Origin: a virus
Length of the DNA stretch: 64,000 nucleotides
IMG/VR virus record: IMGVR_UViG_3300037193_002967
Coordinates: 1 to 64,000 of that record
Reading direction: 5' to 3' (one strand)
The notes under the pieces are model-generated. The model had not been told where the DNA came from. It made no database searches and saw only the letters and a program-made list of their open reading frames with translations. Both the position numbers and the translations under genes were made by a program. This document shows positions 9,405-63,915 of the stretch, in pieces (the first letter of the stretch is position 1; each line of letters opens with the position of its first letter).

Positions 9405-9485
9405 GATATATGTCATTATCATATAAAAGATAAGTATAAAAATAAAATATTTCTTCAAGAATAGAAAATATTTTATTTTGCAGGT

Positions 9486-9794
9486 ATGAATATTGGAGCA
9501 TCTATTAAAAAACTGAGAGGATATGCTGGTATTTCCCAAGTGGAATTAAGTAAAAAGGCCAAATTAGCCCAAGGTTATTTAAGTAATATAGAGAGGGGGA
9601 TGCAGAATCCTAGTTCTCAAGTTATCAAAAGGATTTCCAAGGTCCTTGATATACCACCAGGTTTGATTGTGGTTATGTCTATTGAAGACGAAGATGTGAA
9701 AATTGGAAAGAAAAGGCTCTTTAAAAAGTTAAAACCTGTGATGGAAGAAATAATTGCAGAAGCATTAATCCTACAATATGGCCGTAAAAATTAA
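9486..9794 (+). CDS. XRE-family transcription regulator
   Basis: A 102-residue protein. Residues 5-60 carry a helix-turn-helix of the Cro/cI (HTH_3) type, with the pattern GISQVELSKKAKLAQGYLS and IERGMQNPSS, followed by a short helical tail. The ATG lies only 6 bp after an ATATTTTATTTTG sequence that resembles a Bacteroidota -7 box, so the transcript may have a very short leader. It overlaps the next gene by 17 bp. It probably controls the lysis genes or a lysogeny decision; no target site is obvious. Confidence 0.85.
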   Translation: MNIGASIKKLRGYAGISQVELSKKAKLAQGYLSNIERGMQNPSSQVIKRISKVLDIPPGLIVVMSIEDEDVKIGKKRLFKKLKPVMEEIIAEALILQYGRKN

Positions 9795-11711: not shown

Positions 11712-11739
11712 GTCCATGTATTTCTATACATGGACTTTT
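11712..11739. terminator. Terminator between converging transcripts
   Basis: A perfect 9-bp stem GTCCATGTA / TACATGGAC with a 6-base loop and a short T-run on the plus side. It lies between the endolysin stop and the stop of the converging sigma factor gene and probably serves mainly the plus-strand transcript. Confidence 0.75.
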
Positions 11740-12235
11740 AATTATAAATAAAAACTCGGGCATATTTAAATTGCAATCTCTTTTTGATCCGGTGTACGCG
11801 AACCCGTAGATTATTTTCGTCAATATTTAATAGTGATTGTATCTTTTTAAAACTATATCCATTTAGATATAAGAAAAATATTTCTCGATCTTCATCTGGC
11901 AATTCTGCAATTACAGTATTATATCTAATGGCTTGCTCTAATTTTTCCGCCTCTTCCATACGGTACTCTAAATTATCAAGGAACTCTTCACTAAATGGGA
12001 TATAACGCTTTTGTACCTTCTGTCTTCGAACATGATCTATGCAGGTTCGTTTGCATACGGAAAAGAACCATTGGCTAAATAAGCCCCTACCATTGAACGT
12101 TGGGAAAGAGTGCCACGCCCTTAATAAAATTTCCTGAATGATATCCTCACGGCTCAATTTGTTGGCATAACGATAGCAAGCGTAATGCATGATCTCTTTA
12201 TTGGCCTCAATTCCCGCTATAAATTCAGCTTCCAT
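11738..12235 (-). CDS. Sigma-70 family (ECF-like) RNA polymerase sigma factor
   Basis: A 165-residue protein with region 2 (about residues 20-85, including LSREDIIQEILLRAWHSF and FSQWFFSVCKRTCIDHVRR) and region 4 (about 105-155, LPDEDREIFFLYLNGYSFKKIQSLLNI with a helix-turn-helix). This two-region layout is that of ECF sigma factors. It would redirect host RNA polymerase core to phage promoters, most likely late or middle genes (inference). No anti-sigma gene is recognised nearby. It is the last gene of a minus-strand unit that starts at the promoter near 13250. Confidence 0.85.
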   Translation of the reverse strand: MEAEFIAGIEANKEIMHYACYRYANKLSREDIIQEILLRAWHSFPTFNGRGLFSQWFFSVCKRTCIDHVRRQKVQKRYIPFSEEFLDNLEYRMEEAEKLEQAIRYNTVIAELPDEDREIFFLYLNGYSFKKIQSLLNIDENNLRVRVHRIKKRLQFKYARVFIYN

Positions 12236-13244: not shown

Positions 13245-13274
13245 CAAATATACATCTGTTTAATAATTAAACAA
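13245..13274 (-). promoter_or_regulatory. Promoter with embedded palindromic operator
   Basis: On the minus strand there is TTG (13274-13272), 19 bp, then TATATTTG (13252-13245), an exact fit to the Bacteroidota -33/-7 consensus. The spacer holds a perfect 15-bp palindrome GTTTAAT-A-ATTAAAC (13258-13272), which is well placed for a repressor. An FNR-like sequence TTGAT-CGAA-GTCAA lies upstream at 13312-13325, inside the end of the next gene. It should drive the small membrane peptides and the sigma factor. Confidence 0.7.
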
Positions 13275-13280
13275 GAATTT

Positions 13281-13490
13281 TTATAGCTTTTTTTTCCGCT
13301 CTTTCAATTCCTTGATCGAAGTCAAGTTTTTAACCAAGGTCATGCGTAATTCTGGTACATACCAAGAGTCAATTTGGCCTCGATTGATCCAGTTCCTTAC
13401 CGCTCCTGGCGTTACTTCCAGTTTATTAGCTAAATGCATCTGGCTAACCCACTCAGTAATATCAACTTGTTGTTTCAATTTTTTTGACAT
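13281..13490 (-). CDS. Helix-turn-helix DNA-binding protein
   Basis: A 69-residue basic protein. The ATG at 13490 is preferred over an upstream in-frame start because it begins MSKKLKQQVD and has a short overlap (29 bp) with the upstream gene. Residues 13-40 (WVSQMHLANKLEVTPGAVRN, then WINRGQID) form a helix-turn-helix like those of excisionase or MerR-type proteins that read a helper domain binding site. It sits just upstream of the palindromic promoter at 13245-13274 and is a natural candidate to bind it (inference). Confidence 0.7.
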   Translation of the reverse strand: MSKKLKQQVDITEWVSQMHLANKLEVTPGAVRNWINRGQIDSWYVPELRMTLVKNLTSIKELKERKKKL

Positions 13491-13746
13491 AAGGGTTATC
13501 TTCAAAAGGCATTTTATAGCGAAGAGCCATATATTCAAAATAGAAAGAACAAAAAAGCATTGCTTCTTCTGTACTTTTGCATAAAGCGGCTATTAAAGCG
13601 AATACATCTATTTTTGGGATAGAGGGAATTGACCTTTGGATAACTTCCAGGTCACCAGCAAAAGACTTTAAAGCGGCCACTCTATCTGGTGGGATGCCTA
13701 ATTGGGCTGCAACATCTTTCCCTTCTTTAATTATCGTTATTTTCAT
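13462..13746 (-). CDS. Hypothetical protein
   Basis: A 94-residue protein with a basic N-terminus and a helical core containing Cys and Phe (MLFCSFYFEYMAL). It overlaps the genes on both sides. It belongs to the early minus-strand transcript; its function is unknown. Confidence 0.6.
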   Translation of the reverse strand: MKITIIKEGKDVAAQLGIPPDRVAALKSFAGDLEVIQRSIPSIPKIDVFALIAALCKSTEEAMLFCSFYFEYMALRYKMPFEDNPYVKKIETTS

Positions 13747-18944: not shown

Positions 18945-19187
18945 TTATTTTACAGCCGCTAATTTAGAAGGTTTACGAACATCAACCAAATTTTTTTTGA
19001 TTTCATTCAAATTAACCAATAAAATATAATTATTGCCAATTAAATCAAAAGCATAAACACCTGGCAAAGTTCCATTTCTATAATAGCGCTGAAATACTGC
19101 CTGTTTTGTGCATCCCATTCGTTTGGCATACTCCCTCACAGTCATCGATTGAAGATCGTTAACTTTTGACTTTATTTTCTTCGTCAT
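18945..19187 (-). CDS. Helix-turn-helix DNA-binding protein
   Basis: An 80-residue basic protein. Residues 15-48 (TVREYAKRMGCTKQAVFQRY) form an HTH like excisionase or MerR-type domains. It is the first gene of the minus-strand early transcript, divergent from the plus-strand early genes across a 53-bp control region, so it is a good candidate for a regulator of both. Confidence 0.75.
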   Translation of the reverse strand: MTKKIKSKVNDLQSMTVREYAKRMGCTKQAVFQRYYRNGTLPGVYAFDLIGNNYILLVNLNEIKKNLVDVRKPSKLAAVK

Positions 19188-19240
19188 TAAAAATATTTTT
19201 GGTAAATTTAGTTGATGGTTGTAAACTTGCCAAATAATTT
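19188..19240. promoter_or_regulatory. Divergent early promoters
   Basis: In the 53-bp space between the HTH gene (-) and the plus-strand operon, the minus strand shows TTTG (19234-19231), 20 bp, TAAATTTA (19210-19203). The plus strand shows TATTTTTG at 19194-19201, an exact TAnnTTTG box, with a less well-spaced TTTTG at 19164-19168 inside the HTH gene. The two promoters overlap, so they probably compete. Confidence 0.65.
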
Positions 19241-19561
19241 ATGCGCGTCACCCAAAAATATCTTCTTAATTGGCTTAAAGCTAAGTTCGAACAACTAGAA
19301 ATCGAATATGTGCCATATGATATCCAAAAGACAAGATTTCATCCAAGTCAATACGAAGCAGGGGCGGCTAATTTCTTAATTAGGGCCAGACATAAAACGT
19401 GTAAATCCGATTACTTTGCTGATGCGATAATCTTAGTCCCATTTCCCTTGTGGGATTACCAAGGGGCATTAAATAACGGTTATGAATTATTTTGGGAGCC
19501 AAGGACAGAAAGATGTGGTTACTTTATTAATGATTCAAATTTAATTTATAGAAAAAAATGA
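19241..19561 (+). CDS. Hypothetical protein
   Basis: A 106-residue soluble protein with aromatic clusters. It is the first gene of the plus-strand early operon and overlaps the next gene by 4 bp. Not recognised. Confidence 0.6.
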   Translation: MRVTQKYLLNWLKAKFEQLEIEYVPYDIQKTRFHPSQYEAGAANFLIRARHKTCKSDYFADAIILVPFPLWDYQGALNNGYELFWEPRTERCGYFINDSNLIYRKK

Positions 19562-33735: not shown

Positions 33736-33762
33736 AAGGCGGCTATTATGGCCGCCTTTTTT
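33736..33762 (+). terminator. Rho-independent terminator
   Basis: A perfect 8-bp stem AAGGCGGC/GCCGCCTT with a 7-base loop and a T-run. It ends the replication operon. Confidence 0.9.
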
Positions 33763-34079
33763 GTTACAAACTTTTTTTGTTACAAATCAAAATTTGTAAC
33801 AGTTTTTGTAACGTATTAACTTATTGATATTTAATATATTATACTACCTTGTTACAATGTTACAAAAAATATAGTATAATGGAAGGTATAGGTATAAAAT
33901 ATATAAGGGGTAATTATGTATCTACGAATATATCGTAGATACGCATTTCGCATAATTGTATTTCCCCGTATATATAAATAAGGGCGGTTTTTTTTTGTAA
34001 CTTTGTAACAGACACTTAAGTTAATGAAATTCAATTATTTATACTTTAGTTGCATAAACAACTATGTTACAAGTTACAA
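33763..34079. repeat. Iteron-like region, candidate replication origin
   Basis: Ten copies of GTTACAA or its complement TTGTAAC lie in five pairs: 33763/33779, 33794/33806, 33851/33859, 33995/34003 and 34066/34073. The region is extremely AT-rich and holds a long palindrome (33918-33942). It lies directly after the replication genes and before the nuclease-terminase operon, a natural place for an origin or a multi-site control region. No gene is visible. Confidence 0.6.
33918..33942. repeat. Perfect inverted repeat, cruciform candidate
   Basis: GTATCTACGA-ATATA-TCGTAGATAC, 10 bp arms, flanked by further complementary sequence (GGGGTAATTATG and CATAATT...TTTCCCC). It sits in the centre of the iteron-like region. 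Confidence 0.8.
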
Positions 34080-34182
34080 AATATTAGGGCCATTTTGGTG
34101 GTTTAGCCCCACTTGACGAAAAAAGTGAAAAAAGTGAATTTCGTGAAATCCGTACTTTTCGTGGTTTCCGTACCTTTGCCGG

Positions 34183-36497: not shown

Positions 36498-36544
36498 ATT
36501 GGGATTGCTTCGAATATGAACCATTTCGTGAGTTTTTGCGTGCA

Positions 36545-36574
36545 GGGCTGTCCGGGGAGGGACAGCCCTTTTTT
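36545..36574 (+). terminator. Terminator after the terminase operon
   Basis: A 9-bp stem GGGCTGTCC/GGACAGCCC with a 6-base loop and a T6 run. The next promoter starts directly after it. Confidence 0.9.
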
Positions 36575-36575
36575 A

Positions 36576-36645
36576 TTGATCGTGGTCAATAACTTACGCA
36601 GTATGACAAAAAGATTTGTCATTGTCGTTTTTGTGCGTATCTTTG
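36576..36645 (+). promoter_or_regulatory. Two-part operator promoter A
   Basis: TTGATCGTGGTCAA (36576-36589), 14 bp, TGACAAA-AAGA-TTTGTCA (36604-36621). Its TTTG serves as the -33 box, followed by 19 bp and TATCTTTG (36638-36645), an exact -7 box. It would drive the 36665-36949 gene. Confidence 0.8.
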
Positions 36646-36664
36646 GGATATAAATAAAGATCAC

Positions 36665-36949
36665 ATGAAAAATAGAGCTAAAAAGGGTGGTGAAATAGGA
36701 ATGAACGGGGAATTTTATAAAGGCGGATTATTTTTACCATCAACCCAATTGCCAAAGCAATCACCTATCAAAATCCATAACACAACCACCAAAAAGCCTA
36801 TGGCAGATTGGCAAATTAAGAATCTTGAACGTGCCATTGAGGGTACTAAAAAGGCTCTTCATGCCGCAATTGAAAGAAATGATAAACTGGCTATTGAGGG
36901 CAATACTGCTCAATTAGAAAGATATATGAAAATGCTAAATCAACAATAA
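36665..36949 (+). CDS. Small protein under promoter A
   Basis: A 94-residue basic protein; the second half is a coiled-coil-like helix. Followed by a terminator. Function unknown; regulated by the two-part operator promoter. Confidence 0.55.
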   Translation: MKNRAKKGGEIGMNGEFYKGGLFLPSTQLPKQSPIKIHNTTTKKPMADWQIKNLERAIEGTKKALHAAIERNDKLAIEGNTAQLERYMKMLNQQ

Positions 36950-36975
36950 CAATATTTGTCCGAGATGTACACACC

Positions 36976-37004
36976 GGCCGCAGGTTTCGCCCTGTGGCCT
37001 TTTT
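36976..37004 (+). terminator. Terminator
   Basis: Stem GGCCGCAGG/CCTGTGGCC (one G-T pair), 6-base loop, T5 run. Confidence 0.8.
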
Positions 37005-37005
37005 G

Positions 37006-37076
37006 TTGACCTGAGTCAAGATATTCTATTTATTGACAAATATATTTGTCATTTCAAAAGCGCCTACCTATCTTTG
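37006..37076 (+). promoter_or_regulatory. Two-part operator promoter B
   Basis: TTGACCTGAGTCAA (37006-37019), 14 bp, TGACAAA-TATA-TTTGTCA (37034-37051), then 20 bp and TATCTTTG (37069-37076). The same architecture as promoter A, upstream of the gene at 37097. Confidence 0.8.
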
Positions 37077-37096: not shown

Positions 37097-37357
37097 ATGA
37101 AACACTTCATTTCTTACAGCGCGATCTCAAATTCAGGTACTACAATACCAGATGAATTTTTTTGGAATGGGAAAGAGTTCTGTGTAAACTACAAAGAGAC
37201 CTATCCGATAGTATTTTTTAGCGATGAAGAGGTGGAAGAGGAAGCTTCCAAGGCTATGCAACATTTGGAAGACGCGGGTTTGGAACACCTATATCAAGAA
37301 CCTCAATTCAGCTTCGGTATTAAGCTGGAAAGTGAATGGGCCGTTTGTGATAAATAG
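37097..37357 (+). CDS. Small protein under promoter B
   Basis: An 86-residue acidic protein starting MKHFISYSAISNSG. The start at 37097 places the promoter fully upstream. Unknown function. Confidence 0.55.
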   Translation: MKHFISYSAISNSGTTIPDEFFWNGKEFCVNYKETYPIVFFSDEEVEEEASKAMQHLEDAGLEHLYQEPQFSFGIKLESEWAVCDK

Positions 37358-57323: not shown

Positions 57324-57351
57324 TGATGAATAAAACCACTATATGAAACAG

Positions 57352-57422
57352 TACACAGTATGGGAATCGAACCCATTACATTGACGTGAAAGGCCAACCG
57401 CTCACCAATTGCGTTACTGTGC
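57352..57422 (-). tRNA. tRNA-Glu (TTC)
   Basis: A normal cloverleaf: acceptor GCACAGT/ACTGTGT, D-arm CGC...GCG with GG in the loop, anticodon loop CTTTCAC (TTC), T-arm ATGGG-TTCGATT-CCCAT. No CCA is encoded. Confidence 0.85.
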
Positions 57423-59088: not shown

Positions 59089-59125
59089 GCTTTTTTGTTT
59101 TTGAGTTATAAAATCCCTTAGTTAG

Positions 59126-59195
59126 TTGCGTGGGTTGGAGTCGAACCAAACTTCAGGGTTATGAGCCCCGTGTGCTACCGTTACACCACCCCGCC
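59126..59195 (-). tRNA. tRNA-Met (CAT), initiator-like
   Basis: Anticodon loop CTCATAA gives CAT. Acceptor GGCGGGG pairs with CCACGCA with mismatches at 1:72 (G-A) and 5:68. The anticodon stem has three G-C pairs (GGG/CCC) at 29-31/39-41, a hallmark of initiator tRNA. An elongator Met or a tRNA-Ile2 is not excluded. No CCA is encoded. Confidence 0.8.
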
Positions 59196-60628: not shown

Positions 60629-61501
60629 TTAATTAACCATTTCTAAAATGGTATTGAATATTTTTTTGTCGGCCCTCTCTTTTTCAAAGAATGGCTTGCT
60701 TTCAACACCGTGAATATACTCATTGAAAGCATTATAACCAAGCCATAAATTGGGGGTTGCGCCCAATTGGCCAGCTTCTTTTTGGATGGTATCAATGATC
60801 TGTTGGGCGATTTTAGAAGGCTCATCCGGGTTCTTTTCGCTTTTTTCGTACTTCGCCAGACCGGTCTTGCCTAGAACATATTTCACGAATTCATTGATAT
60901 CTGGTACTACGCCTTCTGCCAGCACATTGAACTTTTTTTGAATGGTGTAATACTCGTTATCCATGAATTGCGCAATAAGCTCTTCGATCTTCGGCATAAT
61001 GATTTCCATGGTGTTAGCGCCGCGTTTACGAAGGCTAAATCCAATTTTCATATGAGCCACATGTAGACCGTTCTCGCATATTTTGCGAAAGCCCGAGAAG
61101 CCGCCCACAGTACGAACGCTACCGTCATATGAATTAATAGCGGTTAGCATGGGTTTGATAGTATCAACACCCTTGGCGTTTTTGAACTTATCGCCAATGT
61201 TTACATGGTAGGCATCGTCTTCCAGGATGTAGTCTACCTTGAAGTTTTGATTGCGGTAGTTGCTGGCGCGCTTGCTGTATTGAATACCAGCATTATCCAG
61301 TAACGTCTCAAACTGACCGAAGAATTGCTCATTCGGAATGAGATTATAGCCATTGCTTACCAGGTTGACAATCTCGCCATCAGCAATAATAAATTTATCA
61401 AAACCGGGGCGCATTTTAAATCCGGTGATCATTGAAGCGTCCGCTTCTGTAACGGGGATGTAGATGTTGTCGTTTCTTTTGTAGGATTGTTGTGTGTTCA
61501 T
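60629..61501 (-). CDS. DUF932 family protein
   Basis: A 290-residue protein. VGGFSGFRKICENGLHVAH with the ICENG core and NLWLGYNAFNEYIHGV fit the DUF932 phage/plasmid-like family (function unknown). It lies under an operator of the TGACAAA-N4-TTTGTCA type. Confidence 0.75.
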   Translation of the reverse strand: MNTQQSYKRNDNIYIPVTEADASMITGFKMRPGFDKFIIADGEIVNLVSNGYNLIPNEQFFGQFETLLDNAGIQYSKRASNYRNQNFKVDYILEDDAYHVNIGDKFKNAKGVDTIKPMLTAINSYDGSVRTVGGFSGFRKICENGLHVAHMKIGFSLRKRGANTMEIIMPKIEELIAQFMDNEYYTIQKKFNVLAEGVVPDINEFVKYVLGKTGLAKYEKSEKNPDEPSKIAQQIIDTIQKEAGQLGATPNLWLGYNAFNEYIHGVESKPFFEKERADKKIFNTILEMVN

Positions 61502-61520: not shown

Positions 61521-61562
61521 TGAAGTTAATTTGGTTTTTTGAATTGACAAAATATTTTGTCA
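61521..61562 (-). promoter_or_regulatory. Promoter D with single operator
   Basis: TGACAAA-ATAT-TTTGTCA (61545-61562). On the minus strand TTTG, 19 bp, TAACTTCA (61528-61521), a weak -7 box. The second palindrome is missing. Confidence 0.6.
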
Positions 61563-61810: not shown

Positions 61811-61937
61811 TAAAGATATTGGGTTTTATTTAATTGACAAATATATTTGTCTTATATTCGCCGATCTTGATCATGATCAATTAAGTCGGTAATTATGACA
61901 AAATAATTTGTCATTTCGAACCCTGATAGTATATTTG
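61811..61937. promoter_or_regulatory. Divergent two-part operator promoters C and C'
   Basis: A central TTGATCATGATCAA (61867-61880) serves both directions. Plus: 15 bp, TGACAAA-ATAA-TTTGTCA (61896-61913), 19 bp, TATATTTG (61930-61937). Minus: 14 bp, TGACAAATATATTTGTCt (61835-61852), 19 bp, TATCTTTA (61818-61811). Symmetric and the best example of the design. Confidence 0.85.
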
Positions 61938-61960: not shown

Positions 61961-62308
61961 ATGGAACTTAATATAAAACAGCTTAAAAAATGGATTGCCG
62001 CTTTAGATAGCGGGGAATATAAGCAATCAATTGGAAGATTGCAGGGGCCAAATGGGTATTGTTGTCTTGGGGTTGCTACCAAATGCTTAGTGCCATTAAG
62101 CCAGATTGAAATAGATCATGAGGGTTACCTTATAGGCACCGTTCCTTTTGATCAAAAATCGGCTCCAAAATGGTTAAAGGAAATAAGTCTTGATTTCAAT
62201 AAACAAACTGGGTATCATTTAACATCATTAAATGATGTATATGGATATAGTTTTACCGAAATCGCCACGCTATTGGAATTAATATACATCCATAAAATCC
62301 TTGATTAA
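61961..62308 (+). CDS. Conserved phage protein
   Basis: A 115-residue protein with CCLGVATKCLVPL, a pattern found in many phage proteins of unknown function. First gene of the plus-strand unit of promoter C. Confidence 0.6.
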   Translation: MELNIKQLKKWIAALDSGEYKQSIGRLQGPNGYCCLGVATKCLVPLSQIEIDHEGYLIGTVPFDQKSAPKWLKEISLDFNKQTGYHLTSLNDVYGYSFTEIATLLELIYIHKILD

Positions 62309-63714: not shown

Positions 63715-63915
63715 ATGCCTTTAGCAGAGGAAATAACTAAATTCTCACAAGTAGTTGGCAGCAATGCGCCAGAAGTGGGAGGGTTTACTATCGGATGGTA
63801 TAGGAAAGAAGCACAAATTAAAGCTATCGCTTTAAGGTTAGCTGAAATGGCCTCTTTTTTACCACACGATCAGCAACAGGAATATAATTCACTCATTCAA
63901 CAATTGATGAAGTAA
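63715..63915 (+). CDS. Small hypothetical protein
   Basis: A 66-residue helical protein. Its stop overlaps the next start (TAATG). Unknown. Confidence 0.5.
   Translation: MPLAEEITKFSQVVGSNAPEVGGFTIGWYRKEAQIKAIALRLAEMASFLPHDQQQEYNSLIQQLMK

Follow-up and report, generated by a model that had tools for sequence, protein, structure and literature searches.

The window analyzed here is a 64,000-nucleotide stretch of viral DNA (positions 1 to 64,000 of IMG/VR record IMGVR_UViG_3300037193_002967), which is part of a 72,173-bp virus record (hereafter G000). Two small genes lie between the large terminase gene and the tail genes, each behind a promoter-like sequence (promoters A and B, both on the plus strand). 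The terminase operon closes with an intrinsic-terminator-like hairpin (AGGGCTGTCC-N6-GGACAGCCCT and a T run, 36544–36575, the hairpin being at 36544–36569) immediately upstream of promoter A. It is followed by a first palindrome, pal1 (TTGATCGTGGTCAA, 36576–36589), then by a second, pal2 (TGACAAAAAGATTTGTCA, 36604–36621), which overlaps the –33 element of the promoter core (TTTG-N19-TATCTTTG, 36615–36645, with TATCTTTG at 36638–36645). The first gene downstream encodes a 94-aa protein of no confident family (36665–36949). At promoter B, also preceded by a terminator-like hairpin (GGCCGCAGG...CCTGTGGCC), we found pal1 (TTGACCTGAGTCAA) at 37006–37019, pal2 (TGACAAATATATTTGTCA) at 37034–37051, and the core (TTTG-N20-TATCTTTG) at 37045–37076, with TATCTTTG at 37069–37076. 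The gene after B encodes an 86-aa protein (37098–37357), the ATG of which falls within a 103-aa ORF listed from 37046. The succession of hairpin, promoter, and small gene at A and B resembles the terminator-promoter-gene layout of morons.

The initial annotation had proposed a strict two-palindrome design for A and B, and most of it held. Both palindromes are present at each promoter, separated by exactly 14 bp; pal2 includes the –33 TTTG; and this TTTG lies 19 bp (A) or 20 bp (B) from TATCTTTG. The proposed strict form of pal1, TTGAyC-N2-GrTCAA, has one mismatch at B (TTGACCTGAGTCAA). Since B carries AGTCAA, TTGAY-N4-RTCAA is the form that fits all copies. The center of pal1, which had been placed about 56 bp upstream of the –7 box and near –70, was measured at 59–60 bp, that is, at about –66 (A) and –67 (B), as a center-to-center distance with the –7 box assumed to be centered at –7 (PMC7366714).

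G000 encodes small and large terminase subunits, a Prim-Pol protein, and helicases. A 141-bp repeat is common to both ends of the record, hence G000 probably represents the whole genome of a phage that closes into a circle. It further encodes an ECF-type sigma factor (Sigma70_r2 and Sigma70_r4_2; 11738–12235, minus strand) and a DUF932 protein (60629–61501, minus strand) with 44% identity to a Flavobacterium phage protein. Given its Bacteroidota-type promoters and a DUF932 gene whose nearest named relatives are found in Flavobacterium phages, G000 most likely infects a bacterium of the phylum Bacteroidota. No tyrosine integrase was detected in the phage by a search that was positive in 14 of 14 control genomes, and there is therefore no sign of lysogenic control. 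Queries with the terminase, the 94-aa protein, and the DUF932 protein returned no relatives in the viral contigs (viral_contigs); Pan5 has terminases in common with G000, and both motifs are absent from it. When we looked for a shared late-promoter motif that the phage sigma factor might recognize, A/T-rich words were the only result. We also noted phage genes for tRNA-Glu (57351–57422) and tRNA-Met (59125–59195), as well as ten copies of GTTACAA/TTGTAAC (17 genome-wide) at 33750–34090, between the replication genes and the small terminase gene, some of which pair into palindromes such as TGTTACAAATCAAAATTTGTAACA. This cluster is an iteron-like array that possibly marks an origin or a packaging site.

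A search of the whole genome with both motifs, as the initial annotation had recommended, revealed sites beyond A and B. pal2 recurs at 61545 and 61896 (both exact) and at 61835 (one mismatch), and pal1 recurs at 61867 and 13312. The pal1 at 61867–61880 (TTGATCATGATCAA), a perfect FNR-type box, lies in a divergent intergenic region, is common to the divergent promoters C and D, and is flanked by a pal2 on either side. On the plus strand, the pal2 of C (TGACAAAATAATTTGTCA, 61896–61913) is 15 bp from pal1, and the core of C (TTTG-N19-TATATTTG, 61907–61937) leads to a run of small genes at 61961–64136. On the minus strand, the pal2 of D (AGACAAATATATTTGTCA, 61835–61852), which is the copy with one mismatch, is 14 bp from pal1, and the core of D (TTTG-N19-TATCTTTA, 61811–61841) leads to a 72-aa ORF (61778–61560). 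Promoter E, also on the minus strand, has pal2 (TGACAAAATATTTTGTCA, 61545–61562), no pal1, and a core with a weaker –7 box (TTTG-N19-TAACTTCA, 61521–61551); it stands before the DUF932 gene. Apart from the latter, the genes served by C, D, and E are small and without assigned function. The fourth pal1 (TTGACTTCGATCAA, 13312–13325, minus strand) falls within the ORF of a small HTH protein, 36 bp before the –33 element of promoter S (CTTG-N19-TATATTTG, 13245–13275, minus strand), which heads towards the sigma-factor gene (12235–11738). A different palindrome, TGTTTAATAATTAAACA, lies between the –33 and –7 elements of S (13257–13273). Separately, a divergent region at 19187–19241 contains a minus-strand promoter (TTTG-N20-TAAATTTA) before an HTH/RecT-like operon, with neither pal1 nor pal2.

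Bacteroidota sigma-A (sigma-ABfr) promoters consist of TTTG and TAnnTTTG about 19–21 bp apart (PMC7366714), and both boxes and their spacing are also present in the phage. A, B, and C are exact, D and E deviate from the –7 consensus by one or two bases, and S has CTTG. Outside genes, strict TTTG-N-TANNTTTG promoters are almost only the sites described here. Unlike ordinary members of this class, the phage promoters have their –33 TTTG embedded in an 18-bp palindrome. This pal1/pal2 pattern is certain, and its recurrence far exceeds chance expectation. The five copies of pal2 (TGACAAA-N4-TTTGTCA; four exact and one with a single mismatch) each lie over a –33 TTTG, with the center at –36/–37 in all five promoters if the –7 box is taken as centered at –7. 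Approximately zero exact copies are expected per genome, as judged from 400 sequences generated with a first-order Markov model of this genome, against four observed; no other gapped palindrome of the phage is as over-represented as GACAAA-N4-TTTGTC (five observed versus 0.008 expected). For pal1 (TTGAY-N4-RTCAA), 0.56 copies are expected per genome and four were observed, all of them in promoter position. The gap from pal1 to the –33 element is 25 bp at A, 25 bp at B, 25–26 bp at C/D, and 36 bp at S, and the centers of pal1 and pal2 are 30–31 bp apart.

E. coli class I activator sites are centered at –61.5, –71.5, and –82.5. The initial annotation read pal1 as an FNR/CRP-family box in such a position. 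Its upstream location agrees with that reading, but by –7-box numbering the centers fall at –66/–67 (A, B, C, D) and –77 (S) rather than near –70. The registers agree with one another and, being one helical turn apart (25/25/25–26 and 36 bp), place pal1 on one face of the helix, as expected for promoters regulated by the CRP/FNR family; relative to the E. coli scale they are displaced by about half a turn, provided that the –7 numbering holds exactly. The boxes themselves are alike in sequence, symmetry, and length (FNR, TTGAT-N4-ATCAA; HcpR, TTGAC-N4-GTCAA). Compared with the published boxes for FNR (TTGATnnnnATCAA) and HcpR (TTGACnnnnGTCAA), pal1 of C/D equals the former, pal1 of B equals the latter, and those of A and S are mixtures (PMC1274295). 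The symmetric 14-bp FNR/HcpR-type box, TTGA-N6-TCAA, takes the form TTGAY-N4-RTCAA in all four phage copies. The control for the HTH_Crp_2 domain was positive in 14 of 14 genomes, whereas no such domain was detected in the phage; any binder of the CRP/FNR type would therefore have to come from the host. In this respect the phage differs from the classical systems: the promoter is of the Bacteroidota sigma-A type, the box is in the phage, and the presumed activator would belong to the host. The pal1 sequence does not distinguish among sensors of oxygen, NO, cAMP, or energy, and low oxygen is only one of the options.

The same box was found before promoters of other viruses. Viral contigs scanned for pal1 lying 20–40 bp ahead of TTTG-N18-21-TANNTTTG yielded at least 119 stretches, many of which lie inside reading frames and reflect chance. 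Among the matches listed, 17 of the 22 non-redundant viral promoters outside long open frames have gaps of 24–27 or 35–38 bp, which make up 8 of the 21 possible gaps (p ~ 2e-4, or 4e-4 minus one homologous pair). These registers, which differ by one turn of the helix, are those of G000 (25–26 and 36 bp). In each of the unrelated viruses G404 and G412, two pal1 boxes stand before promoter-like sequences. The composite of pal1 and promoter had 19 matches in 395 Bacteroidota genomes, with no significant register preference (10 of 19, p = 0.16); the reversed pattern run alongside destroys the promoter too and hence is no fair control for this search. Two of the host matches precede genes that we take, from their sequences, to be pckA (PEP carboxykinase; L206) and sdhC (succinate dehydrogenase cytochrome b subunit; L208). 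Genes of this type are the kind controlled by CRP/FNR-type regulators.

These comparisons bear on an alternative in which pal1 serves a different HTH protein of the phage as a second operator, or in which phage proteins bind both palindromes cooperatively. The phage does encode several small HTH proteins, and a center-to-center distance of 30–31 bp would put the two sites on about the same helix face. Yet the same box occurs at the same registers in unrelated viruses that lack pal2, as well as in host promoters, and of the two palindromes only pal2 is private to G000; we thus regard this alternative as unlikely. A CRP/FNR-family box at pal1 is instead supported by the comparative evidence, namely the FNR/HcpR match, the lack of a phage CRP-type HTH, and the shared registers in unrelated viral promoters, with a position somewhat different from that first proposed.

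We further noted that the two pal1-associated promoters of G412, a 71.6-kb unrelated virus, have an 18-bp sequence, ATTTGGATACGTATATTT, adjoining the –33 element (L195, 212–229 and 1615–1632). This 18-bp sequence includes an 8-bp palindrome, ATACGTAT, and has no further copy in the G412 record. ATTTGGATACGTATATTT is possibly a private second operator, and G412 possibly a second case of a pal1-plus-operator design. More generally, it is conceivable, if rather doubtful, that unrelated Bacteroidota phages commonly wire host-type promoters to a host CRP/FNR regulator at two registers and add a private –33 operator, gating infection by the redox or energy state of the host.

The second palindrome had been read as a repressor or switch site. 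This remains the most plausible reading given its position over –33, and no binding protein was identified for it. A repressor operator is typically a palindrome repeated over core promoter elements, and all five pal2 copies lie over –33. Operators of the Cro/CI type in phage 434 and its relatives are likewise dimeric palindromes over a promoter, repeated at several promoters. The 434 operators have the form ACAA-N6-TTGT, which is also contained in pal2, although this is a lead only. G000 differs from these systems in that it gives no sign of lysogenic control, no tyrosine integrase having been detected.

Could pal2 instead be an activator site? Class II activators bind at –41.5, close to the pal2 center at about –36/–37, and the position of pal2 is constant at the five promoters; a regulator bound there, helped by pal1, would then switch the genes on. 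However, four of the five promoters combine TTTG with a –7 box within one base of TANNTTTG at a spacing of 19–20 bp, so a class II activator should be unneeded and repression is the simpler reading. Moreover, a bound dimer would cover the TTTG itself. We therefore consider activation through pal2 improbable.

An equally improbable alternative is that pal2 is a host repressor site, or a mere variant of strong Bacteroidota promoters. The composite TGACAAA-N4-TTTGTCA-N14-19-TANNTTTG does occur at 29 places in genome_contigs, several of them before tRNA and housekeeping genes, and TGACAAA is mildly commoner 4–5 bp before TTTG than at other distances. The host matches are nearly all single, however, and no common regulon is evident among them; five copies in 72 kb are far above the host rate; and pal2 is absent from two other phage promoters, S and the one at 19234. 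pal2 was also absent upstream of three DUF932 homologs in Bacteroidota genomes. Among viruses, the composite of pal2 and a –7 box was found in 11 stretches, two of them in the viral contig L007 (6358–6399 and 7611–7652), where two promoters have an identical pal2 (TGACAAAATATTTTGTCA) over –33 and no pal1. The strict composite of both palindromes had no relative in the viral contigs. A looser search with a CAAA-N4-TTTG core gave one match, which looks like a coding-frame coincidence. The literature searched contained no account of promoters of this kind in phages of Bacteroidota.

Judged by its position over –33, the likeliest role of pal2 is that of an operator bound by a phage repressor. The candidate regulators are an HTH_3/Xre protein of 102 aa (9486–9794, plus strand; nearest solved relative SinR), a YdaS/P22 Cro-like HTH protein of about 85 aa with sub-threshold Pfam matches (13281–13538, minus strand), and a weakly Cox-like HTH protein of 80 aa (18945–19187, minus strand). 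In no case is the first gene downstream of a pal2 promoter one of these three. The upstream region of the Xre gene contains no pal2, and a Flavobacterium phage with a 37% relative of the Xre protein has no enriched pal2-like palindrome. A long inverted repeat (AAAATAAAATATTT ... AAATATTTTATTTT, 9434–9480) lies directly upstream of the Xre gene. The ORF at 63915–64136, under promoter C, was considered as a Cro-like pal2 repressor and found unsupported (pLDDT 67, no significant Foldseek match). With three small HTH candidates and no tyrosine integrase, control of timing fits better than lysogeny.

Collectively, the sequence evidence points to a model, to which we would give about an even chance, in which a host CRP/FNR-family activator at pal1 and a phage repressor at pal2 jointly control host-type sigma-A promoters. 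The promoters would serve small accessory, and probably early, genes of the phage. At A, B, C, and D, the activator might aid RNA polymerase from about –66/–67; at S, towards the sigma-factor gene, it might act from –77, farther upstream by one turn of the helix. The occupant of pal2 would be a dimeric HTH repressor encoded by the phage, and because the –33 TTTG is part of a pal2 half-site, the bound dimer would exclude sigma and shut the promoter. In a plausible program, host sigma-A and the CRP/FNR-type activator would start these genes and the sigma-factor gene, and the pal2 repressor would subsequently limit A to E. The phage would in this manner sense the redox or energy state of its host through a host protein, and end or delay expression with a protein of its own. 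Protein binding, the identities of the proteins, the direction of the effect, and the timing are the parts of this model that we infer. Such promoters would work like known ones that have both an activator and a repressor; the individual parts are known, and their combination here is new.

To our knowledge, little is known about gene timing in Bacteroidota phages. In G000, the pal1/pal2 pair fronts several of the strongest host-type promoters of the phage. If the boxes work as proposed, a host metabolic or oxygen regulator would set the strength at which the first phage genes and the sigma factor are expressed; the outcome of infection would then depend on growth conditions, which is directly testable. 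The same pair would provide ready-made switch parts for use in Bacteroidota, a phylum for which genetic tools are scarce, and the register analysis offers a testable rule for the placement of CRP/FNR-type activators on Bacteroidota promoters. The physiological state of the host may help decide how viral genes are read.
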